Shown: positions 19,694 through 36,140 of the stretch, piece by piece
Layout: every line of letters begins with the position of its first letter
How positions within the stretch are numbered: position 1 is the stretch's first letter
NCBI GenBank assembly: GCA_028710605.1
Contig: JAQTTU010000018.1
Location: 1-36,140 of the forward strand
DNA length: 36,140 bases
Direction: 5' to 3'
DNA from: Sideroxydans sp.
Lineage (GTDB): Bacteria > Pseudomonadota > Gammaproteobacteria > Burkholderiales > Gallionellaceae
Notes under the pieces: generated by a model
What the model was told of the DNA's origin: nothing
Database searches by the model: none
Seen by the model: only the letters and a program-made list of their open reading frames with translations
Position numbers and translations under genes: made by a program

Positions 19694-20458
19694 TTAGTCA
19701 TGAACTTGTTTTAACCACTCCCCGGCATAAGTCTCAACAGTTTCAATTTCCAGATTTGATTCTGCGCTGAGTGGACGATCAATGACTCTCTTGCCGTCAA
19801 AGCTTGCCATACGATTCGCCCCAAGACTGAACTCGTGCTTGTACTCGACGAATTCGCGTTCTGTTTTGGTTTTGAATTCTTCAAACTCTTGCTTTTCCTT
19901 CGCTACTGCTTCCGCAGATTCCTGCTTGAAAGCATCAAATTCTTCCTGCTCGGTCTTTCGGCGTATCTCGAATTCCCCGTCGTCAGGACTGGCAACACTG
20001 AGAAGTCCTTTGCGCATGCCAATTTCATTGCGATCAGCCAAATTGGTTACGAGAAACCGCGTGCCGCGTATCCCCAGCGTTGCGACACAGGTTCTGATTT
20101 CAACGGGGTGTTGTTTTTCCTTGATGAAATTTAACGCATAGTAAATCATCCCGGTGATCTGTCTAAAGAAACGTGCATTATCCTGCTTCCTGCCGAGTTC
20201 AATTTTGCTGTTCTTTTCAATTACGATATAACCGGTATCGCCAACGCGCACGATGGCGCGCCCGTTCGCCCCAGTCGTCATGATATTTTTTGTGGGCAGA
20301 ATATTTTGGGCGGCAACTGTTCGCTCCTGTTTGCCGTAAGGATCACTCGTTACAACAATCCCTTCCGCTTTGACAACCTCAATTTTGTCATCAGCGGCAT
20401 TGCCGTCAAATGCAATCACCAAACAAACCGCGCAAAGAAATACTTTAATTGGCCGCAT
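19694..20458 (-). CDS. Secreted FecR-domain protein with charged coiled-coil tail
   Basis: A signal peptide (MRPIKVFLCAVCLVIAFDGNAA) precedes a FecR domain of about residues 25-165: ANGRAIVRVGDTGYIVIEKNSKIELG and the hallmark VATLGIRGTRFLVT. A stretch rich in Glu, Lys and Phe (about 165-215: EQEEFDAFKQESAE and similar) is probably a coiled coil. No anti-sigma N-terminus or membrane segment is seen, so this is a periplasmic FecR protein of the LysM/FecR type rather than a classic iron-transport regulator. Its start overlaps the end of the upstream lytic transglycosylase gene by 14 bases, which means an operon. Its role is unknown. Confidence 0.8.
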   Translation of the reverse strand: MRPIKVFLCAVCLVIAFDGNAADDKIEVVKAEGIVVTSDPYGKQERTVAAQNILPTKNIMTTGANGRAIVRVGDTGYIVIEKNSKIELGRKQDNARFFRQITGMIYYALNFIKEKQHPVEIRTCVATLGIRGTRFLVTNLADRNEIGMRKGLLSVASPDDGEFEIRRKTEQEEFDAFKQESAEAVAKEKQEFEEFKTKTEREFVEYKHEFSLGANRMASFDGKRVIDRPLSAESNLEIETVETYAGEWLKQVHD

Positions 20459-21665
20459 CAGTTTTAGCCCATTCGTTGTACTGCCCCATCCGCCCGCTCA
20501 CTTTTGCGACGTAAGTGCGAGTCTCTTCAAACGGCAAATTCTGTTTGAGATATTCAAAAACCTGATCCGAGCTCATTGAATTGATCTTTGGTACGGCTTC
20601 TTTTACGTTGCGCTTGCCAGTAAAAGCCTTGGCCACATTCCCTGCTCCCGTGTTGTACGCAGAAATGGCACAGTACACTCTGCTCTTTGGATCGTTCACC
20701 TTGCGGAATTCCACAGTCAACAACTTTGTCAGCAATGCCGTGCCCAGTTCGATGTTATTTTCTGGAATATACAAATATTCACCGGTGACCAACACATCCT
20801 CTTTCTTTGCGAACATATAGGCATCGCGTCCCCCGGATTTTGGAACAAGTTGCATCAAACCGTAAGCAGGCACAGCGGATCTCGCCATAGGATTGAAATA
20901 GCTTTCCGTATGCATGATGGCAAAAACCAATGTGCGATCAATTCCAAATCTGTCCGCCTCTTTGAAAACCTGATCGCGATAATCCAGCGCCCGCTTCTTG
21001 TCATGGTTTGGCACCAGCTTGAGTTGCACACCGACCATGACGCGCTTAATACCGTCTTTGCCATTGATAACTTCTTTGCTCACCTCGGCAGCTTGGACTG
21101 ATTGCTCGGCAAATTTTTTAGCATTCTTTTCAGTCACCGGCTGGCCGTCTTTTGTGGCCAATTGCCCGGACAGAATTGGCTTCTTGGTCGGGCGAACTGC
21201 ATTCTTCTTTTCCAAAGGATCGTTGCCGCCTTTGGTTACGACAACCTGAGCCACCTGCTCTTTCAGCTTTTGTTCGACTACCTGCGGATTCTTGGCTTCT
21301 TCCTCGGTGACCAATACTTGCACTTTCGCAGTGCCATTTTCGAAATCTACTGAACTCCGCGAAGAATAATTTGGCTCGTAGGAGACGTACTCCTTGATCG
21401 TACTGGTCGCAACATTGTTTGCGCCCCACTTCTGTTCGATCTGTCCTTTGTATTCCTTGAATAACCGCTCCTGCTCGGCAACGTAATTGTCGTATTCTTG
21501 CGTCACCTCCTGCTTGTATTGCAGGAAATCAGCTTGCTCCTGATCCATTCCCGCTTGCTGCTCCTGCATATATTTTTCAAAATCGTCCGGCGCAGCCAGA
21601 ACTGGTGTGAAATATGCAATAGAGCTGACAACAAACGCGGCACTTAGATACTTGGCAATTCTCAT
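20445..21665 (-). CDS. MltC-like lytic transglycosylase (SLT domain)
   Basis: After a signal peptide (MRIAKYLSAAFVV..., cleavage near VLA-APDD) come a Gln/Glu-rich coiled region (about 28-80), a middle part resembling the DUF3393 N-domain of MltC, and an SLT domain from about 235. The catalytic Glu is residue 254 in HTESYFNPMARS, and AYGLMQLVP and YCAISAYNTGAGNVAKAF follow. The family cleaves peptidoglycan to anhydromuropeptides. It has no lipobox, unlike MltC itself. I chose the ATG at 21665, with AAGGGA upstream, over a longer start at 21707 that lies within the preceding gene. It lies between the DUF4384-like protein and the FecR protein on one strand. Confidence 0.88.
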   Translation of the reverse strand: MRIAKYLSAAFVVSSIAYFTPVLAAPDDFEKYMQEQQAGMDQEQADFLQYKQEVTQEYDNYVAEQERLFKEYKGQIEQKWGANNVATSTIKEYVSYEPNYSSRSSVDFENGTAKVQVLVTEEEAKNPQVVEQKLKEQVAQVVVTKGGNDPLEKKNAVRPTKKPILSGQLATKDGQPVTEKNAKKFAEQSVQAAEVSKEVINGKDGIKRVMVGVQLKLVPNHDKKRALDYRDQVFKEADRFGIDRTLVFAIMHTESYFNPMARSAVPAYGLMQLVPKSGGRDAYMFAKKEDVLVTGEYLYIPENNIELGTALLTKLLTVEFRKVNDPKSRVYCAISAYNTGAGNVAKAFTGKRNVKEAVPKINSMSSDQVFEYLKQNLPFEETRTYVAKVSGRMGQYNEWAKTDAAN

Positions 21666-21703
21666 CTTGATCCCTTTCATTAAACAGCCCGCTTGGGGGC
21701 TAT

Positions 21704-23641
21704 TCATTTGGCTTTCGTGGTGAACATCAACGAGGCTTCAGATGTTTCAGCTGTTTTTGAAAACTTTTTGATAATGGCGCGGGTTTTAACAATGCCCTCG
21801 GTATGGTTGGCGGCTGCAACAAGATATAGACCGCTGGCTGAATCAAACTTTACCGACGGCAAGGAATCGGCCAAATTTTTATTGGACGCAAACACCTGCA
21901 ATCCTTCAACACCATACGGAGGGGCTACCTGAAACTTGCCGATGTTGATCCATTTATTCGCATCAACCGCATTGACAAAATATACGAACTTTTGAGGCGC
22001 TTCGACATCCCGCAATTCCACCAGATACGAGTTTTTTTCACTATCTTTTACGGTGTGCCCGACCACATAAAAATAGCCCTGCTCGCTCAGTTTGACCATC
22101 AGTTCGATTTCATCGCCCTCTTCAAACAGCAAATCGTGGCTGCCCTGATTCGTTGAAACCTCTGCCCGTAAATTGCCGGAAACAGCAACCCCGGCTTTTA
22201 ACAACTGGTCGAAATCGGTGGTTTTTGGAGTGGTAACGATTCCTGCGTAAGCGGCTTTTGCCAAATGCACCGAATTGGTTTTTTGCGCGAGCGCACTGCT
22301 ATCCAACAGACGATAAGTAATATCTATGCCCTCGCCTGTTTCCTCATACTGCCCCAACAACATGTATGTCGCCTCGCGCGGGGTCAGCGCCGTCTTAATA
22401 TATTTTGAAAGCTTGTCGCGCATGATCGCGGAAAACTGGGTAACCTCATTTGAGTTACTTGCCCGCGCCGGAAAAATGTACACCGCCGATTCGTCGATTC
22501 CCTCGGCCATAAATTGCGCGGCCAAATCCAGACTATCCACGGCTTTTCTGGTGGCGCGCAATTGGCTTTGCAGCGCATCTTCATCCACGCCGGAGGATTG
22601 CGGCTTGCCGCCCAGATAAGTGTTCACCGTATTGAGTTTCTTGAACTCATCCAGCATGGTGAAAATATCCATGATGGCGGCGTATTGAGTCGCGCCGGCT
22701 TTTTCCTTGGATACGCGAGAATTCAGCGCTGCCATACGAGAATGCAACTCGTTCAAGCGCGCTTCGTACAAGGGCAAACTTTTTGAAGTTTCCAAGACAG
22801 CCTTGACTGAAATCTGCGAACCTTCGTTGTTGGTGACAAAATCGGCTCCCAATATGGGTAACTCGGAATTTGTTTCCATCGTGTTGTTTGCAGACTGAAG
22901 AACAACCTCGGTCTTGGTTTTTTCTACTGTGAGCGAATTCACCGTTTGGGTTGACTTGAAGCTGCTCCGCACCGTTACGCTGATCCGCGATGAAAGATCG
23001 GACAAAGCCTCTCTGCGTGCAGCCGCTTCTGTGTCGCCCCAGCCTTCCCCCACAACTTGTTGCCGTGCGGCGCGCAATTGGCTTCGCAGCACATCTTCAT
23101 CCACACCGGAAGTTTGCGGTTTGCCGCTCAGATAAGTGTTAACCGTATTGAATTTTTTGAACTCCTCCAGCAAAGCCAGAATGTCCATGATGGTGACAGA
23201 TTGCGTCGTAAGCGATTTATCCTTTGAAGCGCGGTCATTCAGCGCGGCCATGCGGGTGTGCAACTCTTCCAATCTGGCCTGATACAACGGCAGGCTTTTT
23301 GAGGTTTCCAAAACTGCTTTGACTAAAATCTGGTTGCCTTCGTTACTGCTGGTAAATTTGGCTCCCAGTATGGGCAACTCGGAATTTGTTTCCAGCATAT
23401 TCTGTGCGGCTTGGAGAACAACCTCCGCTTTCTTGTTTTGCCCTGTTTGCGCGTTTACGGTTTGAATTGACTTGAAATTACTCCGCACCGTCACGCTGAT
23501 GCGTGATGAGAGATCGGACAATGCTTCCCTGCGCGCTACGGCTTCCGTTTCGCCCCGCCCTTCCCCGACGACCTCAGATGCAAAAGCGACCTGCGCTGGA
23601 AGCAACAATAGCAAAGCAACAAGTTGAGAAATAAGCTTCAT
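21704..23641 (-). CDS. Exported LPP20/FlgT-N-like protein with internal duplication and DUF4384-like C-terminus
   Basis: The signal peptide (MKLISQLVALLLLLPAQVAFA) is followed by two copies of a 172-residue unit at 24-195 and 196-367. They align without gaps, with about 126 identical positions by my hand count. Each unit starts VVGEG.G.TEA.ARREALSDL, the pattern of LPP20/FlgT-N-type domains, and ends in a helical part with GVDED. After a linker region (about 368-500) the C-terminus (GDEIELMVKLSEQGYFYVVGHT...) resembles DUF4384, a domain often found near caspase-like, CHAT or kinase genes. It is probably the first gene of an operon with the lytic transglycosylase and the FecR protein. The ATG has AGGTG upstream. 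Confidence 0.75.
   Translation of the reverse strand: MKLISQLVALLLLLPAQVAFASEVVGEGRGETEAVARREALSDLSSRISVTVRSNFKSIQTVNAQTGQNKKAEVVLQAAQNMLETNSELPILGAKFTSSNEGNQILVKAVLETSKSLPLYQARLEELHTRMAALNDRASKDKSLTTQSVTIMDILALLEEFKKFNTVNTYLSGKPQTSGVDEDVLRSQLRAARQQVVGEGWGDTEAAARREALSDLSSRISVTVRSSFKSTQTVNSLTVEKTKTEVVLQSANNTMETNSELPILGADFVTNNEGSQISVKAVLETSKSLPLYEARLNELHSRMAALNSRVSKEKAGATQYAAIMDIFTMLDEFKKLNTVNTYLGGKPQSSGVDEDALQSQLRATRKAVDSLDLAAQFMAEGIDESAVYIFPARASNSNEVTQFSAIMRDKLSKYIKTALTPREATYMLLGQYEETGEGIDITYRLLDSSALAQKTNSVHLAKAAYAGIVTTPKTTDFDQLLKAGVAVSGNLRAEVSTNQGSHDLLFEEGDEIELMVKLSEQGYFYVVGHTVKDSEKNSYLVELRDVEAPQKFVYFVNAVDANKWINIGKFQVAPPYGVEGLQVFASNKNLADSLPSVKFDSASGLYLVAAANHTEGIVKTRAIIKKFSKTAETSEASLMFTTKAK
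22541..23572 (-). repeat. 516-bp tandem in-frame duplication
   Basis: Two adjacent coding blocks, 23572-23057 and 23056-22541, encode the collinear 172-residue units of the exported LPP20-like protein. There is no gap or overlap between them. Confidence 0.85.
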
Positions 23642-23714
23642 AAGACACCTAAAGATGTGGGTTACCGGATTTGTGGAAGCGCATTACTGCTGACTGACAG
23701 CCAACTCTGCCCAT

Positions 23715-23744
23715 CAAAACGCCTCACCGGAGTGAGGCGTTTTG
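23715..23744 (-). terminator. Terminator between lipoprotein gene and the LPP20/DUF4384 operon
   Basis: A perfect 13-bp stem (CAAAACGCCTCAC at 23715-23727 with 23732-23744) has a 4-base loop and ends in GTTTTG. It lies about 75 bases past the end of the lipoprotein gene and upstream of the next minus-strand gene. Confidence 0.75.
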
Positions 23745-23817
23745 TATTTGTGTCCAGGCAAGACTTCAGCGCAATCCAAATGCACATCCCGGCAAAAAAC
23801 CGGGTTGTGCGCCCGGA

Positions 23818-24456
23818 TTACTTGGACGGAGTGTCAATAACCTTCTGCTTGGCAATCTCGGCAGCCATTTCATCCTGACCTTTCTTGGACTGGAATTGTT
23901 GCCACAGCGCCTGATCATTTTTCATGCTGGACTTGACGGCAGTCTGGGTCAATTCTTCCACCGACCTGGAATCAATCCCCATCAACACCCAAAGCTTGCC
24001 GTCCGGGCCTTGCACGCTCTTGAGCACCTTCGAACCGCTAAGAGTTTGCTCGGTGATTTGCATGGTTACCGAAGCATTTACTTTATCGACAGTTTCATTT
24101 TGTGCCGCGCCAGTTGTTTGCGCGAATTGCTTGATCATATTGGCCACATGCACCTTGAACTGTTGCGCCAATGCAACGCGACCAGAAGTCATCGCCATTT
24201 GCTTCTGGAAATCATGTCCTGCTGCGGTGCTTTCAGCAGACCCCGGTGCTGTCACATCCCAACCCGGATATGGCTCATCGCAAACCCAACCCGGAGCCAA
24301 TTCCTGAGTGCCGGGGAATTTGCAACGGTCGTCATAAGCCTGCTGCGCCGGAGCAGCATTGGCACTGCTGCCGGCAGCAGGCCCTTCAGCGGTGACACAT
24401 CCGGTAAGAATTGTGATTAATGCCACTCCCGTACCAATTACCAATCCCTTTTTCAT
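23818..24456 (-). CDS. LPP20-family outer-membrane lipoprotein
   Basis: The lipoprotein signal ends in the lipobox LTGC, with Cys20 as the acylated residue; the +2 residue is Val, which favours the outer membrane. A low-complexity Ala/Gly/Ser linker and a segment with two cysteines (CKFPGTQ, WVCDEPYPGW) precede an LPP20-like domain (MTSGRVALAQQFKVHVANMIKQF...VNASVTMQITEQTLSG...DGKLWVLMGID). GGAG lies seven bases before the ATG. It is divergent from the first WD40-caspase gene across a 311-base gap, and it shares a domain type with the next minus-strand gene. Role unknown; an envelope-structural or assembly part is likely. Confidence 0.8.
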   Translation of the reverse strand: MKKGLVIGTGVALITILTGCVTAEGPAAGSSANAAPAQQAYDDRCKFPGTQELAPGWVCDEPYPGWDVTAPGSAESTAAGHDFQKQMAMTSGRVALAQQFKVHVANMIKQFAQTTGAAQNETVDKVNASVTMQITEQTLSGSKVLKSVQGPDGKLWVLMGIDSRSVEELTQTAVKSSMKNDQALWQQFQSKKGQDEMAAEIAKQKVIDTPSK

Positions 24457-24767
24457 TTGATCGCTCCGTAAAAGTTGAAGTTATAAAAACCACTGCCTGA
24501 CCTACGGCAGAAATCTAACCCACCTGAACTGACAAGGCAACATAGAAATTTGCAACTACCCCCCGCGTTCACGGGATAGACAAACTATCGTGTATCGTTT
24601 AGAAAACACTAGGTGTGTCGCTGGCTTTGTGAGCTCCAAGTTCTATGAGCGAGGAAAGGCAATGCGCCACTCGGTCGCCGACGTGACTGACAGCAATCAC
24701 GACAAAGAAGGGGCGGGCGAGCGGATTGAATCAGCATCTCGCTAAACGTTCTTAGAAAGGAATGACG
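24457..24767. other. Divergent intergenic region with a motif shared between caspase genes
   Basis: No gene is seen in these 311 bases, which lie between the divergent lipoprotein and WD40-caspase genes. The 23-base block at 24560-24582 (CCCCCGCGTTCACGGGATAG and three more bases) recurs with one mismatch at 28741-28763 upstream of the 1563-residue caspase gene. I found no sigma-70 promoter I trust. AAGG lies seven bases before the caspase gene start at 24768. Confidence 0.55.
24560..24582 (+). promoter_or_regulatory. 23-base motif, copy 1, upstream of the WD40-caspase gene
   Basis: The core CGTTCACGGGATAGACA follows a run of C's. Copy 2 is at 28741-28763. It lies about 185 bases before the start codon. 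The function is unknown; it may be a regulatory site or a small dispersed repeat. Confidence 0.45.
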
Positions 24768-27700
24768 ATGTTCAAGTGGATGATAAAGGCGCTGATTGCG
24801 GCGATGTGTTTTGTTGGCATGGTGGGTGGGGCGACAGCCGGGTTGCAAATCAAACCAGCGGATGAAGAGAAGGCGCAAATATTTGTACAGCTGGGGCATA
24901 CATCGTTTGTAAAGACAGCCTCCTTCTCTCCCAATGAGCGCACGATAGTTTCAGGAGGTGCGGACAATACCCTCAAACTGTGGGATATCGCCAGCGGACG
25001 AGAACTACGAACACTGCGCGGCCATAGAGATCAAGTAGCTTCAGCCGCCTTCTCACCCGATGGACGTACACTAGTTTCAGGTAGTTTTGATAAAACCCTC
25101 AAATTATGGGATGTCGCCAGTGGTAGTGAACTGCGTACATTGAGTGGACATAGCCATAAGGTAAATTCAGTTTCCTTTTCCCCCGATGGGCGCACCCTGG
25201 CTTCGGGCAGCTGGGACAACACCATCAAGCTGTGGGATGTTGCCAGCGGACGCGAGCTACGCACATTGAGCGGGCATGGTTTATTTGTCCTTTCAGTTGC
25301 CTTTTCACCCGACGGGCGCACCCTCGTTTCGGGCAGTAGTGACAACACCCTCAAGTTGTGGGATGTCGCCAGTGGACGCGAGCTGCACACTTTCAGCGGG
25401 CATAGCAATGAGGTGGAATCAGTTGCCTTTTCCCCCGATGGAAGCACCCTTGTTTCGGGTAGTGACGACCACACCCTCAAGCTGTGGGATGTTGCCAGTG
25501 GGCGCGAACTGCACACACTGAGCGGGCATGGCGGTGCTGTGCTAAAAGTTGCCTTTTCCCCCGATGGAAGCACCCTTGTTTCGGGTAGTGACGACCACAC
25601 CCTCAAGCTGTGGGATGTTGCCAGTGGGCAGGAATTGCGCACACTGCGCGGACATAGTGGTTGGGTGGAATCAGTTGCCTTTTCCCCCAGCGGGCGCATT
25701 CTCGTTTCGGGCAGTAGGGACAAGACCCTTAAGCTGTGGGATGTCGCAAGTGGGCAATATCTGAGTAGTCTGAGTGGATATGACAACGCGGTGAATTCAG
25801 TCGCATTTTCTCCCGACGCACGCACGCTGGTTTCAGGATGTGATGACAAGACCCTTAAACTGTGGGATATCGCAAGTGGGCAAGAACTACGCACATTTAG
25901 CGGGCATAGCGAGTTGGTGCAATCAGTCGCATTTTCCCCCGATGGGCGCACGCTAGTTTCAAGCGGCTGGGACCAAACCATCATGCTTTGGGATGTCTCC
26001 AGCGGACGAGTGTTAAGCACATTGAGAGGGCATAGCAACTCAGTGAGTTCCGTCGCCTTTTCGCCTGACGGTCGCACCCTTGTTTCGGGTAGTGACGACA
26101 AGACCATCAAGCTGTGGGATATCGCCAGTGGACAAGTTCTGCGCACGTTGATCGGGCATAGAAATTTGGTAACTAAAGTCGCTTTTTCCCAAGATGGGCA
26201 CACCGTCGTTTCAAGCAGTTATGACAACACTCTCAAGTTATGGGATGTAGAAAATGGTCAAGAACTACACACATTGAGCGGGCATAGCAAGGGAGTTCAT
26301 TCATTCGCTTTTTCACCCGACGGAAGAACCCTTGCTTCGGGTAGTTGGGATAAAACCATTAAGCTGTGGAATGTCGCCAGTGGACAAGAGTTACGCACGT
26401 TCAGCGGGCATAACTCAGATGTGTACGCGGTTGCCTTTTCTCCTGACGGACGCACTCTTGCTTCGGGAAGTAGTGACAATACCCTCAAGTTGTGGGATGT
26501 TGCCAGTGGGCGTGAATTTAAAACTATGAGTGGGCATGAAAACAGGATCAATCAAGTCATTTTTTCTCAAAATGGCCAAGAGGTTGTTTCAGGCAGTTCA
26601 GACGGCACTGTCCGACTATGGGATGTCGCAACGGGGGGGCTCAAGCTTACTGTAGTGAGCTTCAGTGGCGGCGAATGGATCGCGATCACCCCCGAAGGCT
26701 ACTACAACGCCTCCGCCAAAGGCGGCGACTGGCTGAACGTCCGCCTCGGCAACAAAGTACAAGGCATCAATCAGTTCTACGACGTGTTCTACCGTCCCGA
26801 CATCGTCGAAGCCAAGCTGCGCGGCGAAGACATCTCCGGCATGATTAACCTGACGATTGACGATGCGATGAAGTCTCCACCGCCCGAAGTGGCCTTCACC
26901 ACCGTGCCCGGAGCCTCCTCCGCCAGCAAAGAAAAAGTCTGCTACAAGATCACCAGCACCGGCGGCGGCATCGGCGAGGTGCGCTTGTTCCAGAACGGCA
27001 AGCTGGTGAAGTCGGATGGTTTCTACCGCGAAGCCGTGGCCAAGCGCGAAGACAAGATGATGCTGGCGAGTGCCAATGGCGAAGGCGTTTATCGCTCGAT
27101 GCGCTCGCTCAAAATGGTCAAGGGCGAAAGCCCCATCCAGACTGCCAAGAGCAAGGGCGACGTGGTGGAAGAATGCCAAGAGATTGAAGCCATTCCCGGT
27201 GAGAACGAACTCGGCGTGACGGCCTTCAATGCACCCAACACCATACAAAGCAGCATGGGGCAAGCCAGCTTCAACTCCAGCCGCCCAGCGCAAGCACCGC
27301 ACCTCTACATCCTGAGCATAGGCATCAACCAGTTTGCCGATTCCGGCAACAACCTGCACTACGCCGCCAAGGATGCGCTGGATTTCCAGAAACTGATGCA
27401 GGAGAAATCCGGCACGCTGTTCTCGCCGGAGAACATCCACGTCACTTCGCTGACCGACCAGCAGGCCAGCAAACAAGGCATCATCGGCAAGCTGGACGAA
27501 CTCTCGGGGCAGATCAAACCTTGGGATAGCTTCGTCCTGTTCGTCGCCTCGCACGGCGTGTTGATTGGCACGCAGTATTACCTCGTCTCAGCCAATTTCG
27601 ATGGCACGGGCAGCTTCGACCAACTGATAGGCTCGAACGAGATCGTCGAACTCTCCAAGAAAATCCGCGCGCTCAACCAGCTCTTCATCTTCGACACCTG

Positions 27701-28037
27701 CCATGCCGGTGGCGTGGACAACATCGTGGGCGGCCTGTACGACGCGCGCATGAGCGTGCTGGCGAAAAAAATGGGATTGCACATCTACGCCTCGGCGGGC
27801 GGCTTGCAGGAAGCGCTCGATGGCTATCAAGGCAACGGCCTGTTCACGCATGCGCTGCTCGACAGCATGAACACCAGCGGCACCACCGACAGCAACGGCG
27901 ACAAGCAAGTGAGCGTGATGGAACTGGGGGCGCGGGCGAAGCAGGAGACGACGGAAATCTCCACCAAGCTGGGTGCGCCGCAGTCGCCGAACATCATCAA
28001 CTTCGGGAAAGATAATGCGTTGTTTGGGGTGCGGTGA
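24768..28037 (+). CDS. Exported WD40-repeat caspase-like protein with 14 repeats
   Basis: A signal peptide (MFKWMIKALIAAMCFVGMVG, cleavage near ATA-G) is followed by 14 WD repeats, residues 43-631. Repeats 1-13 are exactly 42 residues long and the last is 43. Fourteen would build two seven-bladed propellers. A linker (EWIAITPEGYYNAS...FYRPDIVEAKL) and a beta-rich segment (about 705-835) lead to a C14 caspase-like domain from about 845. The dyad is His929 (VASHGV) and Cys978 (FDTCHAGG). Bacterial caspase homologues often cut after basic residues, but specificity cannot be read here. The start is ATG 24768 with AAGG seven bases upstream; ATG 24762 is too close to that site. Export of a caspase-like protein is unusual. 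Confidence 0.9.
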   Translation: MFKWMIKALIAAMCFVGMVGGATAGLQIKPADEEKAQIFVQLGHTSFVKTASFSPNERTIVSGGADNTLKLWDIASGRELRTLRGHRDQVASAAFSPDGRTLVSGSFDKTLKLWDVASGSELRTLSGHSHKVNSVSFSPDGRTLASGSWDNTIKLWDVASGRELRTLSGHGLFVLSVAFSPDGRTLVSGSSDNTLKLWDVASGRELHTFSGHSNEVESVAFSPDGSTLVSGSDDHTLKLWDVASGRELHTLSGHGGAVLKVAFSPDGSTLVSGSDDHTLKLWDVASGQELRTLRGHSGWVESVAFSPSGRILVSGSRDKTLKLWDVASGQYLSSLSGYDNAVNSVAFSPDARTLVSGCDDKTLKLWDIASGQELRTFSGHSELVQSVAFSPDGRTLVSSGWDQTIMLWDVSSGRVLSTLRGHSNSVSSVAFSPDGRTLVSGSDDKTIKLWDIASGQVLRTLIGHRNLVTKVAFSQDGHTVVSSSYDNTLKLWDVENGQELHTLSGHSKGVHSFAFSPDGRTLASGSWDKTIKLWNVASGQELRTFSGHNSDVYAVAFSPDGRTLASGSSDNTLKLWDVASGREFKTMSGHENRINQVIFSQNGQEVVSGSSDGTVRLWDVATGGLKLTVVSFSGGEWIAITPEGYYNASAKGGDWLNVRLGNKVQGINQFYDVFYRPDIVEAKLRGEDISGMINLTIDDAMKSPPPEVAFTTVPGASSASKEKVCYKITSTGGGIGEVRLFQNGKLVKSDGFYREAVAKREDKMMLASANGEGVYRSMRSLKMVKGESPIQTAKSKGDVVEECQEIEAIPGENELGVTAFNAPNTIQSSMGQASFNSSRPAQAPHLYILSIGINQFADSGNNLHYAAKDALDFQKLMQEKSGTLFSPENIHVTSLTDQQASKQGIIGKLDELSGQIKPWDSFVLFVASHGVLIGTQYYLVSANFDGTGSFDQLIGSNEIVELSKKIRALNQLFIFDTCHAGGVDNIVGGLYDARMSVLAKKMGLHIYASAGGLQEALDGYQGNGLFTHALLDSMNTSGTTDSNGDKQVSVMELGARAKQETTEISTKLGAPQSPNIINFGKDNALFGVR
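24894..26660 (+). repeat. Array of 14 WD40-coding repeats, 126-bp period
   Basis: Each unit encodes a 42-residue blade starting GH. Units begin every 126 bases from 24894 to 26532 without drift. The framework (VAFSPDGRTLVSGS.D.TLKLWDVASG) is nearly invariant. Residues 3-5 after GH, and the residue before the DxT motif, change in almost every unit. Repeats 5 and 6 share 83 identical bases. Confidence 0.92.
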
Positions 28038-28048
28038 GAGAAGTAGCT

Positions 28049-28302: not shown

Positions 28303-28704
28303 ATGACATTTTCAAAATTCCGCATCGCCGCTCTATTTCTTCTTGCCTTTCTTTTTGTTCCGTTATCGGGTTTTGCGCAGGAGCAGGCCAAGGTCGTGGG
28401 GCATTGGAAACAGTATGCGTGGGACGGTCAGCGCTGGAAAAATCTGGGGATTTTTGTTGTTTATTCTCAGGCCGGAAATTATTTGATGGCTCCGGCATCC
28501 CAAAAAAGAGACACAAATGTGATCAATACCAAAGGATTGTTTGACGTTAAATTTTCCGAAACTGCATGGCAATTCAAGTCGGACTGGGGCAATGGAGACA
28601 TTGCCGAGTTTGAACTCGAAAGAATCGGCTCGGGGGCATACCACGGCTGGGCATATCTTGAAGGCAAGAAAGTAAACGAAAATTTGTGGGTGCTTATCAA
28701 ATAG
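28303..28704 (+). CDS. Small exported protein of unknown function
   Basis: The 133-residue protein has a signal peptide (MTFSKFRIAALFLLAFLFVPLSGFA) and a mature part of about 108 residues, rich in aromatic residues and in predicted beta strands (GHWKQYAWDGQRWKNLGIFV, WGNGDIAEFELERIG). It has no cysteine in the mature part and no membrane segment. GGAGA lies six bases before the ATG at 28303. I do not recognise a family. It sits between two exported caspase-like genes on the same strand, so a partner, substrate or inhibitor role is possible, but nothing in the sequence proves it. Confidence 0.75.
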   Translation: MTFSKFRIAALFLLAFLFVPLSGFAQEQAKVVGHWKQYAWDGQRWKNLGIFVVYSQAGNYLMAPASQKRDTNVINTKGLFDVKFSETAWQFKSDWGNGDIAEFELERIGSGAYHGWAYLEGKKVNENLWVLIK

Positions 28705-28740: not shown

Positions 28741-28763
28741 CCCCCACGTTCACGGGATAGACA
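28741..28763 (+). promoter_or_regulatory. 23-base motif, copy 2, upstream of the caspase-FGE gene
   Basis: Same motif as 24560-24582 with one mismatch (G to A in the sixth position). It lies 89 bases before the start codon and is followed by small hairpins (GGCG...CGCC at 28765, AATGCC...GGCATT at 28783-28798). Confidence 0.45.
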
Positions 28764-28851
28764 GGCGGATTTCGCCCGGCATAATGCCGTCTGGCATTGG
28801 CGTAGTTATTCACAATAAAACCGCAGCAAAAAATAATCAGGGGCTCTGCAA

Positions 28852-31800
28852 ATGATGCGCGTAAAAAATTCACTGGCCTTGATGCTGCGGGTCGCTTTTT
28901 TGTTGGTGTGCAGCCTGAATGTTGCATACGCGGGCGAACCGCCGACCGAGCCGATGTTGCGCATTGATCCGGGCGAGCACATCGTGCAGATTAACCGCAT
29001 CGCCACCGACCGGGATGGACGCTGGCTGGTGACGGCCTCCAACGACAAGACCGCGCGGGTGTGGAGTCTGGAGGATGGCCGCTTGCTCGCGACGTTGCGC
29101 GTGCCGATTGCGGGCGGACATGAAGGCAAACTCTATACCGTGGCAATGTCCCCTGATGGACAAACGGTGGCGTTAGGGGGATGGACTCAGGCGGGAGAAG
29201 AAGCCTCGGTTTCAATTTATTTATTCGACCGCGCGAGCGGACGGATGCTGCGCCGCCTTCCCGGCCTGCTCGGTTCTATTTCCAGTCTCGCATTTTCTCC
29301 CGACGGGCAAACCCTGGCGGCGACACTGAGCGGTGGTGCCGGATTGCATTTGTTCTCCGTTTCCGATGGGCGCGCGCTGGCCGAAGATATTGAATACGAC
29401 ACGGATAGTTACTCAGTCCATTTCACTGGTGACGGGCGATTGGTTACGACTTGCCTTGATGGCTTCCTGCGCCTGTATCGCTTTGATGGTGCAAACCTGA
29501 CGCTACTCGCCAAGAAATCCGCACCCGGCGGCAAGCAACCGTTTACTGCACGATTCTCTCCCGACGGACAGCGCATCGCGGTGATCTTTAACGACAGCTT
29601 TGCGGTGAATGTGCTGAATAGTTCCGATTTGTCGTTTGCTTACGCGCCGGAAACGGCCAAGGTCGATGCCGAACTGATGACAGTCGCCTGGTCGCGCGAT
29701 GGGGAAACGCTGTTTGCGGCGGGTGATGCCAGACACGTTATCAAACGCTATATCCGTCGCTGGCGCGCGCGCGGAACCGGTTCCGCGCAAGAGTGGAACA
29801 CCACGCAAATGACCGTGGTAGATCTCGCCCCGCTGCCCGACGGCAAGCTCGTTTACGCCACCGGCATGCCCGAGTGGGGAGTGTTCAGTGCGGACGGCAC
29901 GCAGCAGTTATTTCATGGCGCACCCATTGCCGATTTACGCGACAACCTGGCCGGATTCAAGCTGTCTGCCGACGGCAAAAAAGTGCTGTTCGGTTTTGAG
30001 TTATACGGCAAATCCCCGGCGGTTTTCGACATCCAAAACCGGGCTTTTGCAAATGCGGATTCGCCCGGACTCTCCTCCCCCACCATCAAGTCACCCGGCC
30101 TGGAATTAAGCGACTGGATCAATTCCGCCACCCCCAAGTTGAACGGCACTGTCGTCGAAATGAAGCAGTACGAAACCTCGCGCAGCTTGGCGATATTGCC
30201 GGGTGGAGATGGCTTTGTGCTGGGCGCGGAATGGTCGTTGCGTTGCTTCGACCGCAACGGCAAGCAGCGCTGGGTGCAGGAATCCGAGGCCGGTATCGCA
30301 TGGGATGTAAACGTGTCGCAGGACGGTCGCTGGGTGGTGGTGGCTTACGCCGACGGCACGATCCGCTGGCATCGCGCTGCCGACGGTGTCGAGCAATTGG
30401 CGTTCTATCCGCATCCCGACAAAAAACGCTGGGTGATGTGGACACCTTCCGGCTATTTCGAGGCCTCGCCCGGCGCGGAAGATTTCATCGGCTGGCATGT
30501 GAATCGCGGCAAAGACCATGCGCCGGATTTCTTCCCTGCTTCGCGTTTCCGTGATCGCTTCAACCGTCCCGACATACTCGCCAAGGTTTTGGAAACGCAG
30601 GACGAAGCCAAAGCCATCAGCCTCGCCAATGCAGAATCCGGTCGCCGTACCAGCACCGCCTCCATCGCCCAAGTGTTGCCGCCCGTGGTGGAGATCGTGT
30701 CTCCCGCATCCGATTCATCGGTGGATTCCACCACCATCAAAGTGCGCTACACCGTGCGCACCGCCGCCGATGCACCGGTGACCGCGATGCGGGTGCGCGT
30801 GAACGGCTTGCTGCAATCCGACACGCGCGCATTGAAGCTAGTCAGCAGCGTGAGCGATACGCAAGAAATCGAAGTGAAACTGCCCGAGCAGGATGCCGAA
30901 GTGCAACTGTTTGCGGAAAACAAATACAGCGTCTCCACCCCCGCCATCCTGCGTTTGAAATGGGCGGGCAAGGTGTCGGGCCAACGTGCAAAACCGAAAC
31001 TCTACGTGCTGGCCGTGGGTGTATCGAAATACAAGAACCCGGACTACAACCTGGGACTGGCGGCAAAGGATGCGCAGGATTTCGTGAGCGCACTGGAGAG
31101 CCAGAAGGGCAAGCTGTACGACGACGTGGTGGTGAGGCTGCTCACCGACGACAAGGCCACCAAGGATGACGTGCTGGACGGGCTGGATTGGCTGAAGCAG
31201 CAAGTGACGGCGCAAGACGTGGGCATCATGTTCGTCGCCGGGCACGGCATGAACGACAAGCTGGGCGGCTATTTCTTCCTGCCGCATAACGCCGACCCGG
31301 AAAAATTGAACCGCACCGGCGTGTCGCAGGACGACATCAAACGCACCTTCGCCAGCCTGCCCGGCAAAACCGTGTTTTTTGTGGACACCTGTTTTTCCGG
31401 CAGCGTGCTGGGCACGGTGCGCACCAGCGGCTTCATCAACGACATGGCCTCGGCGGAAAACGGCGCAGTAGTGTTTGCCGCCTCTTCTGCCGGACAGTTG
31501 TCGCAGGAAAACGAAAGCTGGGGCAATGGCGCGTTCACCAAGTCGGTGGTGGAAGGTTTGAGCGGCAAAGCCGATTTCCGCAAGAAAGGGCTGATTACCG
31601 CGAAGGGGCTGGATTACTACGTGGACGACCGCGTCAGGGAACTGACCAATGGCCTGCAAACGCCCGTCAGTATTGCGCCGGGCGGGGTAAGCGATTTCAC
31701 GCTTGCCAGTCTTGGCGCGCAAAGCGATGCGGAGACAGCATCCAGCGGCAGCGTCGCAGTGCCCGTGCCCGCCCCTACTCCCAAGATCAGCACGGGAATG

Positions 31801-33543
31801 CAACCCGGCACTATCTACAAGGATTGCGCGGACTGCCCCGAGATGGTGGTGATCCCGGCGGGCAGTTTCAACATGGGCACGGCTGCGGGCAGAGATGCCG
31901 AAGCCCCCGTTCATCAGGTCACTTTCGCCAAGCCTTTTGCCATGGGCAAAATCGAGATCACTCAAGCCCAATGGCAATCTGTCATGGGCAACCTCCCCAA
32001 CGAAAACCAAAACTGCGGCGACAATTGCCCGGTCGGAAATATCAGCTGGAATGAGGCTCAGGAATTCATCCAGAAGCTCAACGCCAAGACCGGCAAGCAG
32101 TATCGCCTGCCGAGCGAAGCCGAATGGGAATATGCCTGCCGCGCCGGAGGGCAGCAGGAATACTGCGGCAGCGGCGACGTGGGTGATGTCGGTTGGTATG
32201 AAAGCAATAGCGGCGACACCCCTCATCCTGCCGCGCAGAAAGCCGCCAATGCTTTCGGCTTGTACGACATGAGCGGCAGCCTGTGGGAATACGTCGAGGA
32301 CACCTATCACGACAGCTACAGCGGCGCGCCCACGGACGGCACGGCATGGACAGGCGATGGCGCTGAACGCGTCATTCGCAGCGGTTCGTGGAACGCTTCG
32401 GCAAGTTTCGAGCGAGCCGCCTATCGCATGGGCTACTCCCCCAAGTTACAGTTCAAAACCATGGGGATGCGGGTTGCCCAAGCGCTTTCCGGTGCGGCTG
32501 CCATCGCGATTCCCGCCCCTGTTCCTCCCCAAGTCTCTGCCGCAATTACATCGGGCAGCGTGTTCAAGGATTGCGCGGATTGCCCCGAGATGGTGCTGGT
32601 TCCGGCGGGCAGTTTCGATATGGGTTCGCGCCAGAACGAGACCGAACGCTATGACAGCGAAAGCCCGTTGCACCGCGTGACCATCGGCAATGCCTTCGCC
32701 TTGGGCAAGACCGAAGTGACGCAAGGCCAGTGGAAAGCCGTCATGGGCGACAACCCCAGCGGTTTCACGAGCTGCGGCGACAACTGCCCGGTCGAAAAAG
32801 TGGGCTGGAATGATGCAAAGGAATTCGTTCGCAAACTCAGCGCCAAGACCGGCCAACAATATCGCCTGCCGAGCGAAGCCGAATGGGAATACGCCTGCCG
32901 CGCGGGCGGACAACAGAAATATTGCGGCAGCGACACGCAAAGAGACGTGGCGTGGTACGGCGACAACAGTCCCAGAAGAACCTCACCTGTCGCGCAAAAA
33001 CAGGCAAACGCTTTCGGCTTGTATGACATGAGCGGCAACGTGTGGGAATGGGTTGAAGACAGCATGCACGCCGACTACAACGGCGCGCCGTCGGATGGTT
33101 CAGCCTGGTCGGAAGAAGGCGCGAAACGCTTGTTCCGGGGCGGCTCGTGGTACAGCCCGCTGCCCTATCTGAACAAGACAACGCGCTTGGGCGATTTGCC
33201 AACGTACCGCGACGACAGCGTCGGCTTCCGCGTGGCGAGAGCGGTTACCGCGCCGACCAGCGCCGCTGCCGCAAGCGTTGCCGGAACAACCTGGGCGATA
33301 AAGGATTCCGACGGGGATCAGTATTTATATTTTTTCCAAACCGACGGGGCTTTGCACTACCAGGGCAGCAACAAAACTCTATACAAAAATGGAACCTGGC
33401 AACAAAGCGCTAACAAAATCAGCATGGAAGCAAACCAGCGCTATATGGAACGTGAGGGCGAAATTTCCGGCAAACATGCGTCGGGCAACGGGTGGAATCG
33501 CCAAGGGGAAAAATGGACTTGGACTGCCGATCAAGTCGATTGA
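28852..33543 (+). CDS. Exported multidomain protein: propeller, caspase-like domain, two FGE-type domains
   Basis: A 1563-residue protein with a signal peptide (ALMLRVAFLLVCSLNVAYA). Residues about 40-525 form about ten divergent WD40-like blades (SPDGQT, SRDGET). A linker like that of the other two WD40 proteins follows (WVMWTPSGYFEAS...FNRPDILAKVL), then an Ig-like beta segment (605-715) and a C14 caspase-like domain (about 714-950) with His798 (AGHGM) and Cys847 (VDTCFSG). Two FGE/SUMF1-fold domains occupy about 986-1228 and 1235-1470; each has KDCADCPEM and RLPSEAEWEYACRAGG, but neither has the cysteine pair of true formylglycine-generating enzymes. The last 90 residues form a separate beta-rich tail. 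The start has AGGGG eight bases upstream. Confidence 0.88.
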   Translation: MMRVKNSLALMLRVAFLLVCSLNVAYAGEPPTEPMLRIDPGEHIVQINRIATDRDGRWLVTASNDKTARVWSLEDGRLLATLRVPIAGGHEGKLYTVAMSPDGQTVALGGWTQAGEEASVSIYLFDRASGRMLRRLPGLLGSISSLAFSPDGQTLAATLSGGAGLHLFSVSDGRALAEDIEYDTDSYSVHFTGDGRLVTTCLDGFLRLYRFDGANLTLLAKKSAPGGKQPFTARFSPDGQRIAVIFNDSFAVNVLNSSDLSFAYAPETAKVDAELMTVAWSRDGETLFAAGDARHVIKRYIRRWRARGTGSAQEWNTTQMTVVDLAPLPDGKLVYATGMPEWGVFSADGTQQLFHGAPIADLRDNLAGFKLSADGKKVLFGFELYGKSPAVFDIQNRAFANADSPGLSSPTIKSPGLELSDWINSATPKLNGTVVEMKQYETSRSLAILPGGDGFVLGAEWSLRCFDRNGKQRWVQESEAGIAWDVNVSQDGRWVVVAYADGTIRWHRAADGVEQLAFYPHPDKKRWVMWTPSGYFEASPGAEDFIGWHVNRGKDHAPDFFPASRFRDRFNRPDILAKVLETQDEAKAISLANAESGRRTSTASIAQVLPPVVEIVSPASDSSVDSTTIKVRYTVRTAADAPVTAMRVRVNGLLQSDTRALKLVSSVSDTQEIEVKLPEQDAEVQLFAENKYSVSTPAILRLKWAGKVSGQRAKPKLYVLAVGVSKYKNPDYNLGLAAKDAQDFVSALESQKGKLYDDVVVRLLTDDKATKDDVLDGLDWLKQQVTAQDVGIMFVAGHGMNDKLGGYFFLPHNADPEKLNRTGVSQDDIKRTFASLPGKTVFFVDTCFSGSVLGTVRTSGFINDMASAENGAVVFAASSAGQLSQENESWGNGAFTKSVVEGLSGKADFRKKGLITAKGLDYYVDDRVRELTNGLQTPVSIAPGGVSDFTLASLGAQSDAETASSGSVAVPVPAPTPKISTGMQPGTIYKDCADCPEMVVIPAGSFNMGTAAGRDAEAPVHQVTFAKPFAMGKIEITQAQWQSVMGNLPNENQNCGDNCPVGNISWNEAQEFIQKLNAKTGKQYRLPSEAEWEYACRAGGQQEYCGSGDVGDVGWYESNSGDTPHPAAQKAANAFGLYDMSGSLWEYVEDTYHDSYSGAPTDGTAWTGDGAERVIRSGSWNASASFERAAYRMGYSPKLQFKTMGMRVAQALSGAAAIAIPAPVPPQVSAAITSGSVFKDCADCPEMVLVPAGSFDMGSRQNETERYDSESPLHRVTIGNAFALGKTEVTQGQWKAVMGDNPSGFTSCGDNCPVEKVGWNDAKEFVRKLSAKTGQQYRLPSEAEWEYACRAGGQQKYCGSDTQRDVAWYGDNSPRRTSPVAQKQANAFGLYDMSGNVWEWVEDSMHADYNGAPSDGSAWSEEGAKRLFRGGSWYSPLPYLNKTTRLGDLPTYRDDSVGFRVARAVTAPTSAAAASVAGTTWAIKDSDGDQYLYFFQTDGALHYQGSNKTLYKNGTWQQSANKISMEANQRYMEREGEISGKHASGNGWNRQGEKWTWTADQVD
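31807..33240 (+). repeat. Tandem FGE-type domain duplication
   Basis: The blocks starting at 31807 and 32554 encode two related domains, both beginning with KDCADCPEM and with matching DNA over long stretches. They differ most between GSW and the final GMRVA/GFRVA motif, the end that forms the ligand-binding face in C-type-lectin-like FGE folds. Confidence 0.75.
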
Positions 33544-33590
33544 ACCAGGATTGTCTTTTAGATTATTGGGTATCACAAAATCAAGGCGTT

Positions 33591-33666
33591 GTAGGTCGGG
33601 TTTCCCCGCAGGGGTTCTCGTGCCCTCTGGGCGCAACCCGACATGTCGGGCTGAAGCCCGACCTAC
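33591..33666. repeat. Palindromic intergenic element between the second and third WD40 genes
   Basis: Arms GTAGGTCGGGTTTC (33591-33604) and GAAGCCCGACCTAC (33653-33666) pair in 13 of 14 positions. Inside lie the perfect palindrome CCCGACATGTCGGG (33637-33650) and a CCCC/GGGG hairpin (33604-33614). The form fits a dispersed MITE or REP-like repeat. Confidence 0.75.
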
Positions 33667-33703
33667 GAGTTAGCAACGCGCAAAAATTTTTGAAAGGATG
33701 ACG

Positions 33704-36140
33704 ATGTTCAAATGGATGATGAAAGCGCTGTTGGCGGCAATGTGCTTCGCGGGCATGGTGGGAGAAGCGTCGGCTGCCGACGAGGAAAAGGCGCAAATAT
33801 TTGTGCAGTTGGGGCATAGCCACTATGTAATTTCTGCTGCCTTCTCCCCTGACGGTCACACCATCGCATCGGGTAGTGAGGACAAGACCATCAAGTTGTG
33901 GGATAGCGCCAATGGACGCGAGCTGCGCACGCTTCGCGGGCATGGCGATGCTGTGAGAACCGTTGCCTTCTCACCCGATGGACGCACCCTCGTTTCGTGT
34001 AGTGCGGACAAGAGCATCAAACTGTGGGATGTACGCAGTGGGCGCGAATTACTTACCCTGAAAGGTCATAGCGACTGGGTATATTCAGTCGCCTTTTCCC
34101 CTGATGGTCGCACCATCGCTTCAGGCAGTGGGGACAAGAGCATCAAATTATGGGATGCCACCAATGGACGAACATTACGCACACTGGTTGGACATGGTGG
34201 CAAAGTGAATTCCGTTGCCTTTTCCCCCGATGGTCGCACTCTCGCTTCGGGCAGTGACGACAAAACTCTCAAGCTGTGGGATGTCGCCAGCGGACGTGAG
34301 CTGCGCACCCTGAACGGACATGGCAATTGGGTGAACTCCGTCGCTTTTTCCCCCGATGGTCACACCCTCGTTTCGGGTAGTTCGGACGAAACCATCATAC
34401 TGTGGGATGTCAACAGTGGACGCAAATTGCGCACACTGGAAGTGAATAAAGGTCAGGTAAGTTCGGTCGCCTTTTCTCCCGACGGACGCACCCTCATTTC
34501 GGGTAATACTTTCGACACCCTCAAACTATGGGATGTGGCTAGCGGGCAAGAACTGCGCGAATTGCGCGGACATTCCGACGCAGTGAAATCTGTCGCTTTT
34601 TCCCCGGACGGAAGAACTGTTGTTTCGGGCAGTCTCGACCAAACTCTCAAGCTGTGGGACATTGCCAGTGGGCAAGTGCTGAATACACTGAGCGGGCATG
34701 CCCCAATTGTGGCAGCGCTTGCCTTATCTCCCGACGGGCACACACTTGTCTCAAGCAGTAGCGACAACACTCTCCAACTATGGGACATCGACAGCGCACG
34801 TAAATTGCGCACCCTAATCGGGCATAGCACAGCTGTGATTTCCACCGCCTTCACCCCCGACGGGAGAACCCTTTTATCGGGAAGTAGAAACAACATTATC
34901 AAGCAGTGGGATGTCGCCAATGGAAAAGAACTACGCGAGCCGAGCGGTCAGTCTCCATTTTCCATTTCTCCCGACGGACGCACCCTTGCTTCAGGTGATG
35001 ATTTAGGCAATGACGTTCATCTGTGGGATGTCTCCACTGGGCGCGAGCTGCGAAAACTGAGCGGATATGATCAGGGGATGCATTATCAGAGCGGGTATGT
35101 AAATTCAGTCGTCTTTTCCCCTGACGGAAAAACCGTCGCCGCAAGTTGTGCGGATAACACCATCAGGTTGTGGGATGTCGGCAGCGGGCGGGTTTTGCGA
35201 ACTTCGAATAGTTTTCGGATTAATGTGACAACCCCCATTGTTTTTTCTCCAGACGGACGCTCCATCGCTTTTGGCAATATGGAGAACATTCTAAATCTAT
35301 GGGATTTCACCAAGGGGAACACGCTGCGTACTCTGGGAGCGAAATCAAAAAGCTATGACCAAATTGCTCAAGTCGCATTTTCTCCCGATGGACGCACCGT
35401 CGTTTCTGGCAGTACGGACAACACCATCAAGATATGGGATGTTGCCAGCGGACGGGAGTTGCGTACACTGAACGAACACCATGGAGGTGTGACTTCTCTG
35501 GCATTTTCTCAAAATGGCAAACTGCTTATTTCAGCGAGTTATGATGGCACGGTTCGACTCTGGGATGCCGCAACGAACAATCTCAAACTGACTTTAGTGA
35601 GCTTCAATGACGGCGAGTGGATCGCCATCACCCCCGAAGGCTACTACAACGCTTCCGAAAAAGGCGGTGACTGGCTAAACGTCCGCCTCGGCAACAAAGT
35701 GCAAGGCATCAACCAGTTCTACGATGTGTTCTACCGTCCTGACATTGTTGAAGCCAAGCTGCGCGGCGAAGATATTTCCGGGTTGATCACCCTGACCATC
35801 GACGACGCGATGAGGAGTCCTCCGCCCGAAGTGGCCTTCACCACTGTGCCCGCCCCCTCCTCCGCTAGCAAAGAAAAAGTCTGCTACAAGATCACCAGCA
35901 CCGGCGGTGGCATCGGCGAGGTGCGTCTGTTCCAGAACGGCAAGTTGGTGAAGTCGGACGGTTTTTACCGCGAAGCCGTGGCCAAGCGCGAAGACAAAAT
36001 GATGCTGGCCAGTGCCAATGGCGAAGGAGTGTATCGCTCGATGCGTTCGCTCAAGATGGTCAAGGGTGAAAGCCCCATCCAGACCGCAAAGAGCAAGGGC
36101 GACGTGGTGGAAGAGTGCCAGGAGATCGAAGCGATACCCG
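33704..36140 (+). CDS. Second exported 14-repeat WD40 protein, caspase domain expected beyond window (3' partial)
   Basis: The frame is open from ATG 33704 to the window edge (812 residues). AAAGG precedes the start, exactly as in the first WD40-caspase gene. The signal peptide (MFKWMMKALLAAMCFAGMVG, cleavage near ASA-A) is almost the same. Fourteen WD repeats follow from 33812. Nine are regular; numbers 6 and 10-13 are irregular, and number 10 is short (GQSPFSISPDG). The linker and beta segment from about 35610 on are nearly identical to the first gene; the last stretch of over 80 residues (VCYKITSTGGG... to EAIP) is identical. The paralogue has about 280 more residues with the caspase domain, so the same is expected here. 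Confidence 0.88.
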   Translation, partial: MFKWMMKALLAAMCFAGMVGEASAADEEKAQIFVQLGHSHYVISAAFSPDGHTIASGSEDKTIKLWDSANGRELRTLRGHGDAVRTVAFSPDGRTLVSCSADKSIKLWDVRSGRELLTLKGHSDWVYSVAFSPDGRTIASGSGDKSIKLWDATNGRTLRTLVGHGGKVNSVAFSPDGRTLASGSDDKTLKLWDVASGRELRTLNGHGNWVNSVAFSPDGHTLVSGSSDETIILWDVNSGRKLRTLEVNKGQVSSVAFSPDGRTLISGNTFDTLKLWDVASGQELRELRGHSDAVKSVAFSPDGRTVVSGSLDQTLKLWDIASGQVLNTLSGHAPIVAALALSPDGHTLVSSSSDNTLQLWDIDSARKLRTLIGHSTAVISTAFTPDGRTLLSGSRNNIIKQWDVANGKELREPSGQSPFSISPDGRTLASGDDLGNDVHLWDVSTGRELRKLSGYDQGMHYQSGYVNSVVFSPDGKTVAASCADNTIRLWDVGSGRVLRTSNSFRINVTTPIVFSPDGRSIAFGNMENILNLWDFTKGNTLRTLGAKSKSYDQIAQVAFSPDGRTVVSGSTDNTIKIWDVASGRELRTLNEHHGGVTSLAFSQNGKLLISASYDGTVRLWDAATNNLKLTLVSFNDGEWIAITPEGYYNASEKGGDWLNVRLGNKVQGINQFYDVFYRPDIVEAKLRGEDISGLITLTIDDAMRSPPPEVAFTTVPAPSSASKEKVCYKITSTGGGIGEVRLFQNGKLVKSDGFYREAVAKREDKMMLASANGEGVYRSMRSLKMVKGESPIQTAKSKGDVVEECQEIEAIP

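Follow-up and report, generated by a model that had tools for sequence, protein, structure and literature searches.

Eight exported-type genes in two facing groups

The window analysed here is a stretch of 36,140 nucleotides (nt) and constitutes the whole of contig C14 in the 3.36-Mb genome of a Sideroxydans species (Gallionellaceae). From position 19,694 onward, gene calls and Pfam searches identify eight genes, g1 to g8: three WD40-caspase genes and a small gene on the forward strand and, facing them, genes for a FecR-domain protein, an MltC-like lytic transglycosylase, a DUF4384-like protein and an LPP20 lipoprotein. The original prediction, made from the letters of this DNA alone, had described export signals on all eight, caspase-like His/Cys dyads in two, a third gene as the close paralogue of one of these, and the four divergent families; each of these observations was borne out, DUF4384 as a sub-threshold match. 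The single unit envisaged there is partly supported: the window unites two conserved sub-modules, a peptidase with g3, and FecR with an LPP20 protein and an enzyme bearing an FxxYK coil segment (a coil enzyme). The forward-strand features are as follows.

24762..28037, forward: g5, exported WD40-caspase (Pfam, signal script, His/Cys dyad, caspase fold in the C-terminal half)
27312..27926, forward: caspase (Peptidase_C14) domain of g5 (PF00656, E 2.9e-16)
28303..28704, forward: g6, exported protein of 133 amino acids (signal script; no family)
28852..33543, forward: g7, exported WD40-caspase with two FGE-sulfatase domains (Pfam, NF047832)
30994..31641, forward: caspase domain of g7, residues about 715-930 (NF047832, E 1.4e-21; PADLOC caspase, 1.2e-10)
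31834..33240, forward: two FGE-sulfatase domains of g7 (PF03781 at 31834-32478 and 32581-33240)
33698..36140, forward: g8, paralogous exported WD40-caspase, truncated at the contig end ahead of its caspase domain

Export was assessed with a hydrophobicity and charge script and by eye, not with SignalP. Export-type N-termini were found in all eight window genes and in the caspases of contig C30, described below. Among four neighbours used as controls, tmk, tatD and gltX scored low and mltG, presumably a membrane protein, scored high.

The caspase-like proteins

Both g5 and g7 contain the caspase domain with a His/Cys dyad that characterizes Peptidase_C14 orthocaspases, and as orthocaspases these putative proteases would cleave after basic residues. 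A model of the C-terminal half of g5 (mean predicted local distance difference test score, pLDDT, 73) had MALT1 paracaspase, GSU0716 and caspases among its top structural matches. The NF047832 match of g7 lies below the cut-off of that model and the PF00656 search does not list g7; the protein is nevertheless 61% identical over 970 amino acids to a PF00656-positive caspase of locus L053, which ends before the FGE part. The genome has six PF00656 matches, namely g5, four on contig C30 and a separate one on contig C10. The dyad is present in g5, g7 and the four C30 caspases. All 33 alignable caspases retain it, of which 6 belong to this genome and 27 to the named loci introduced below; a thirty-fourth is a fragment that lacks the region.

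Immediately beyond the propeller, the truncated g8 and g5 share 96.6% identity over 174 residues. When g5, g8 and a paralogue of 1224 amino acids on C30 were compared, the signal-plus-propeller parts were 54-62% identical and the next 174 residues 95-98%. Gene conversion would account for this constant segment, as would a set of diversified sensors that share one output.

The FGE-sulfatase domains of g7 were absent from the original prediction. A separate FGE-domain protein at L016 (7847-8950) shares 60% identity with the first of the two g7 FGE domains and is a possible donor of the fused domains. A diversity-generating retroelement acting on the FGE domains was considered and rejected, as no reverse transcriptase of that type was found in the genome: of its two RVT_1 matches, one is a group II intron reverse transcriptase over the cut-off and the other is nearest to group II and DRT models, below their cut-offs. 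The reverse transcriptase at L018 (5735-7378) resembles group II and DRT-type antiviral enzymes, all below NCBIfam cut-offs. As for g6, no Pfam family was found at E<=0.01, and by eye it resembles the C-terminal tail of g7 (33250-33540).

The divergent strand

The features of the reverse strand, and the intergenic region that separates the two groups, are listed here.

24457..24761, no strand: divergent intergenic region between g4 and g5 (305 nt)
23818..24456, reverse: g4, LPP20 lipoprotein (PF02169, E 4e-8; lipobox LTGC)
21704..23641, reverse: g3, exported protein with two LPP20-like copies, an LpoB/TolB-N-like domain and a DUF4384-like end (Pfam, profile stretches, model, fold search)
22256..22537, reverse: LpoB/TolB-N-like domain of g3 (model residues 180-273)
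21878..22126, reverse: DUF4384-like domain of g3 (Pfam E 2e-4, below cut-off; within the immunoglobulin (Ig)-like part of the model)
20445..21707, reverse: g2, MltC-like lytic transglycosylase, accessory copy without lipobox (SLT, E 5e-23; Mltc_N, E 4e-17)
21432..21587, reverse: FxxYK coil segment of g2 (motifs at residues 43, 61, 72 and 83; first read by eye)
19694..20458, reverse: g1, exported FecR-domain protein with a C-terminal FxxYK segment (PF04773, E 4e-7; signal script)
19820..19945, reverse: FxxYK coil segment of g1 (enzyme-only profile, E 4.4e-5)

The Pfam matches of g3 to LPP20 (E 3.5e-5) and DUF4384 are both under the Pfam cut-off, the latter with 21.8 bits against 27, and the domain is thus a sub-threshold relative that we term DUF4384-like. 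An AlphaFold model of residues 190-645 (pLDDT 86) was used for fold comparison. By fold and by profile (E 7.6e-6), g3 matches HP1454 of the LPP20 family; the match covers the LPP20-like and LpoB-like parts of g3 but not its DUF4384-like end. A g3 homologue also gave a weak match to FlgO (E 0.005). With a PF02169 score of 33.9 bits against a cut-off of 25.9 and a lipobox, g4 belongs to the LPP20 family; it lies 176 nt upstream of g3. The overlaps of g3 with g2 (4 nt) and of g2 with g1 (14 nt) suggest a g3-g2-g1 operon. The g1 protein is 46% identical to the FecR protein of L053 and shares only the FecR domain with FecI/FecR signalling. No sigma-factor or receptor family was found among the island proteins scanned, small open reading frames (ORFs) not included, and a reading as iron signalling finds no support.

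Caspase-clan peptidases accompany g3 across distant taxa

A first contig scan with g3 alone returned no relative. The g3 gene is rare. Homologues occurred in 3 of the 119 other genomes of a sample of relatives. Among 399 genomes from the order, 6 had full-length g3, as did 3 among 369 from the class, with this genome included in both counts; the remaining matches (2 genomes in the order, 16 in the class) were partial. A profile built from 11 homologues defined 42 named loci in 41 genomes, one genome contributing two. These loci were found via two peptide patterns and are a non-random sample in which some genomes are related; they come from Betaproteobacteria, Sulfurimonas, Helicobacteraceae, Methylococcaceae, Psychromonas, Vibrio, Colwellia, Spirochaetes, Deferribacteraceae and others.

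A caspase profile matched 22 of the 42 loci, and in 18 of the 42 the nearest caspase ORF lay within 400 nt of g3; in L142 the nearest one is a fragment, with the dyad-bearing piece 1.3 kb away. The 41 genomes contain 138 PF00656 matches in 136.5 Mb, and therefore 0.64 would be expected in the 0.63 Mb of the loci, where 28 caspase ORFs were observed (one a fragment beside another); the observed count comes from our own broader profile and the expectation from PF00656 density. Partner caspases had export-type N-termini in 12 of 15 cases checked, the other three having doubtful starts, and one bears an OmpA domain. CHAT proteins belong to the caspase clan, and four of the 20 caspase-free loci (L113, L114, L126, L128) hold proteins of TPR-CHAT or CHAT type. 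Read by eye, their N-termini are of export type, and HG and SACE motifs are present in all six examined; Pfam was run on five of these proteins, and the CHATs of L114 were found by our own profile only. Taken together, caspase and g3 are a real conserved pair.

Further partners of g3 recur in a minority of loci, again including distant taxa: of the 42, our own profiles detected MltC in 4 and a different coil enzyme in 4 others, while 5 gave a FecR match and 10 an LPP20 match. The conserved neighbourhood on which the original prediction had staked its claim was therefore found. The full combination of g3, FecR, LPP20 and an enzyme is found in the window, L104 and L130, each of which also has a caspase, and in L143, where the g3 gene is cut by the contig end and LPP20 is sub-threshold. 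L142, from another phylum, has MltC, FecR, caspase pieces and, by eye, an LPP20-type gene.

Some of these loci have features of their own. In Psychromonas, four tandem CHAT ORFs directly follow the g3 homologue in both L113 (11323-21323) and L114 (11405-21317), with lipobox-like N-termini by eye in those read, in parallel to the caspase array. L124 (13119-15173) encodes a putative lipoprotein with a lipobox in which a PpiC-type isomerase is fused to a caspase, near a g3/MltC/LPP20 set. A frame in L101 (1-4963) has kinase-like (by eye) and g3-like C-terminal parts, with a caspase fragment on the same short contig. In L143 (1087-8075, Helicobacteraceae), genes for FecR, a CHASE2-cyclase, a coil MltC, an LPP20-like protein and an MlaE permease lie in a single run, which may point to a connection with lipid transport.

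A segment common to FecR proteins and exported enzymes

With its SLT and Mltc_N domains, g2 has the domain content of MltC, and at 208.8 bits it falls under the NCBIfam MltC equivalog cut-off of 375; it is best described as an MltC-like paralogue and putative transglycosylase. The genome has two Mltc_N copies; the one other than g2 is a housekeeping-type MltC, which was also detected in 16 of 24 genomes of the genus but not in any of the 16 examined from other families. Unlike MltC, g2 lacks a lipobox and has an N-terminal FxxYK segment. The same holds for four MltC proteins from g3 loci, whereas four housekeeping MltC proteins of the genus have LPAC lipoboxes and no FxxYK motifs. In a midpoint-rooted tree of nine MltC sequences, g2 sits on a long branch between the housekeeping and g3-locus copies and is not placed with either.

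The FxxYK segment is C-terminal in FecR proteins and N-terminal in another exported enzyme, which occurs in relatives and not in the window. The latter has invariant C, H and D columns and is by this motif putatively transglutaminase-like; PF01841 matched one of six members at E 0.18, and a profile search of the PDB returned nothing at E<=10. Motif spacing is 18-11-11 in g2, the MltC proteins of L142 and L143 and the enzymes of L104 and L133, and 18-11 in three FecR proteins (g1, L130, L137); it deviates in L120, L124 and L139 and in the FecR proteins of L104, L142 and L143. A profile from nine enzymes recovered six of six FecR proteins at E 5e-11 to 0.003, the next unrelated ORF among 594 scoring 0.4. 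The reverse profile, derived from FecR proteins, found g2 at 2e-6, L142 and L143 at 1e-4 to 2e-4, L120 and L124 at 0.006 and 0.022 and L139 at 0.27; it misses three enzymes, and the best of six shuffled searches reached 0.028.

The coil segment was present in 34 of 44 g3-positive and 7 of 36 g3-negative genomes (p 4e-7); once the nine profile-seed genomes are set aside, the counts are 25 of 35 and 7 of 36 (p 1.3e-5). Neither value is corrected for taxonomy. The seven g3-negative genomes with the segment are all of the same genus (7 of 13, against 0 of 23 others). FecR, a coil enzyme and LPP20 form a second conserved set. Loci L190, L191, L192 and L193 of the same genus hold this set at a different site, free of caspases, and probably represent a core envelope system of the genus. 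Since g1 and g2 are the only coil matches in the window genome, it may have exchanged the usual FecR-enzyme pair of the genus for the FecR-MltC pair of the island.

A probable accessory island beside a tRNA gene

The genes left of 19.6 kb are of housekeeping type as read by eye, in the order that we take to be mltG-tmk-holB-tatD.

18796..19563, forward: tatD (name presumed), the left island flank, 77-82% identical in five same-genus genomes

Contig C30 begins with a caspase end of 85 amino acids that is 94% identical to the C-terminus of g5. Four caspase genes follow (1224, 1063, 1315 and 1159 amino acids as called), the last two with sub-threshold propeller matches only, and then genes for an LPP20-like protein of 299 amino acids and a Sel1-type protein, tRNA-Val and gltX. 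Because tatD, tRNA-Val and gltX are adjacent in three of five same-genus genomes checked, the two contigs, C14 and C30, most likely carry the two ends of a single accessory island, which would measure about 34.6 kb plus a gap. A fourth genome has one additional ORF between these genes, and in the fifth the 19 kb fetched contains neither gltX nor tRNA-Val. The two contigs together hold about seven exported-type propeller-caspases.

Scans for promoters and terminators, and for promoter-like sites in the g4/g5 intergenic region, gave counts close to the shuffle mean and were given no weight. A search for a direct repeat between the island and the tRNA-Val region yielded short matches only (longest 16 nt at 94%), and Rfam identified four tRNAs and nothing else. 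No match was found in plasmid records with the whole of g3 or in phage records with its residues 190-645.

Relation to known systems

Orthocaspases and metacaspases share with the proteins described here the His/Cys dyad, the caspase fold and the WD40 and FGE-sulfatase partners. Passages of a metacaspase survey (PMC3501461) give frequencies of 10.9% for WD40 and 4.9% for FGE among the sequences, and describe probable signal peptides, operons that serve surface functions and a maximum of three metacaspases per predicted operon, in contrast to about seven in the island. The main text of that survey does not mention FecR, transglycosylase or the periplasm. DUF4384 is likewise tied to caspase-family domains in the fusions with orthocaspases noted in passages of three papers (PMC7475262, PMC8283722, PMC6426788), 23 of them cyanobacterial according to a table passage of PMC8283722; here, however, the DUF4384-like domain belongs to an exported protein of its own, which also has LPP20-like and LpoB-like domains. 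The FecR-CHASE2 BiofilmReg operon, as described in a passage of PMC5192318, combines an exported FecR with a CHASE2 sensor and a lipoprotein-type gene, without transglycosylase or caspase. CHASE2-cyclases accompany FecR in L098 and L143, whereas no CHASE2 family was found among the scanned proteins of the window island. Our literature search, which did not extend to the FxxYK segment, found no paper on the combined module, on periplasmic, exported or secreted caspases, on any three of FecR domain, LPP20, transglutaminase, transglycosylase and CHASE2 together, or on Gallionellaceae with caspases.

A proposed envelope protease module and its alternatives

We tentatively propose, with somewhat less than even confidence, that the window encodes a protease module that resides in the envelope, is triggered by damage and is coupled to the opening of peptidoglycan. 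In the periplasm the caspase propellers would sense the condition of the envelope, such as damage or wrongly assembled protein or glycan. Together with the LPP20 lipoprotein g4, g3 would be kept close to the outer membrane, and its Ig-like end would scaffold or restrain the peptidases. Upon a trigger the caspase domain would cleave envelope proteins, and FecR would dock the transglycosylase through the common FxxYK segment, leading to local peptidoglycan opening. The outcome would be regulated remodelling, or lysis if run to the end. Since the propellers diverge over a near-constant following segment, it is suggested that several inputs feed one output. A single joint machine, and the combination of proteolysis with wall cutting, are predictions.

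Several observations weigh against so close a union. Sixteen of the 42 g3 loci have neither caspase nor CHAT, seven of these being shorter than 9 kb. In all four same-genus loci fetched and read for all ORFs, one or two LPP20 genes lie together with those for FecR and a coil enzyme, with no full g3 and a match to neither caspase profile, one locus having a weak partial g3 match (E 4e-7, an ORF of 350 amino acids), and the g3 of L142 consists of the C-terminal part only; the proposal is weakened because of these last two findings. Of the single unit envisaged originally, the union of two conserved sub-modules in the window stands, and their inseparability does not, as both are also found apart.

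Two separate systems on one island, the peptidase with g3 and a caspase-independent, general outer-membrane or peptidoglycan apparatus of FecR, coil enzyme and LPP20, would fit these loci, and we regard this as quite possible, if doubtful. Consistent with it, a coil MltC of Sulfurimonas genome G835 (L195) sits among unrelated genes, and genome G823 has its coil set (L194) on one contig and its caspase and g3 pair (L103) on another; the G823 coil-set contig has two caspase matches further on, however. Separate systems are also at odds with the presence of both sets in one neighbourhood in the window, L104, L130 and L142 (partial g3) and with the LPP20 genes that accompany both.

An accessory island that occupies a variable site next to a tRNA gene, the tandem paralogues with divergent propellers over a near-constant segment and the tandem CHAT genes of Psychromonas would also fit a conflict or altruistic-death system, with propellers that recognize signals of phage, toxins or kin at the envelope and with lysis of the cell by caspase and transglycosylase. 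Gene conversion alone can account for the constant segment, however, and exported peptidases would be unable to reach cytoplasmic targets. Moreover, no NTPase or toxin family was found among the island proteins scanned, and PADLOC yielded only its generic caspase model, in two of eight proteins scanned (g8 not among them), and no system-specific model. We consider this explanation unlikely.

Still less probable is an accessory of a flagellum-like or outer-membrane ring, with g3 and g4 as LPP20/FlgP-like components and the caspases as structural or processing parts. The match of g3 to HP1454, studied in H. pylori as an interactor of FlgP and FapH in the passages of PMC11756786, and the weak FlgO match of its homologue point that way. 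The conserved catalytic dyads and the CHAT and FGE-caspase partners argue against it, as does the scan of island proteins, which found no flagellar family except sub-cut-off Sel1-repeat matches to MotX-type models.

A chance neighbourhood of unrelated exported genes, to which we give almost no credence, could draw on the commonness of each family and the lack of the g7 FGE domains in the L053 counterpart, and it is largely contradicted for caspase with g3 and for FecR with coil enzyme by recurrence far over the density expectation, by CHAT in place of caspase in some loci and by the coil common to FecR and enzymes.

If the proposed protease module is extended beyond this genome, it would amount to a general, previously undescribed envelope "caspase box" of diderm bacteria. 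Exported and exchangeable C14 or CHAT peptidases, governed by an LPP20-LpoB-like-DUF4384-like partner, would be coupled through a hendecad-like FxxYK docking segment on FecR to exchangeable wall-acting enzymes, and programmed proteolysis with peptidoglycan opening would be periplasmic and not cytoplasmic. We think this generalization somewhat unlikely as a whole.

Discussion of bacterial caspases generally treats them as enzymes of cell death or defence, and few have, to our knowledge, an established location. Because versions of these gene sets recur in several bacterial phyla, the findings suggest a little-studied system acting in the bacterial envelope. A concrete docking segment is predicted between FecR and envelope enzymes, and DUF4384/LPP20 proteins gain a candidate role as peptidase partners. 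If the conserved exported set with its envelope partners is true, the long-debated function of these caspases would become testable in the periplasm.

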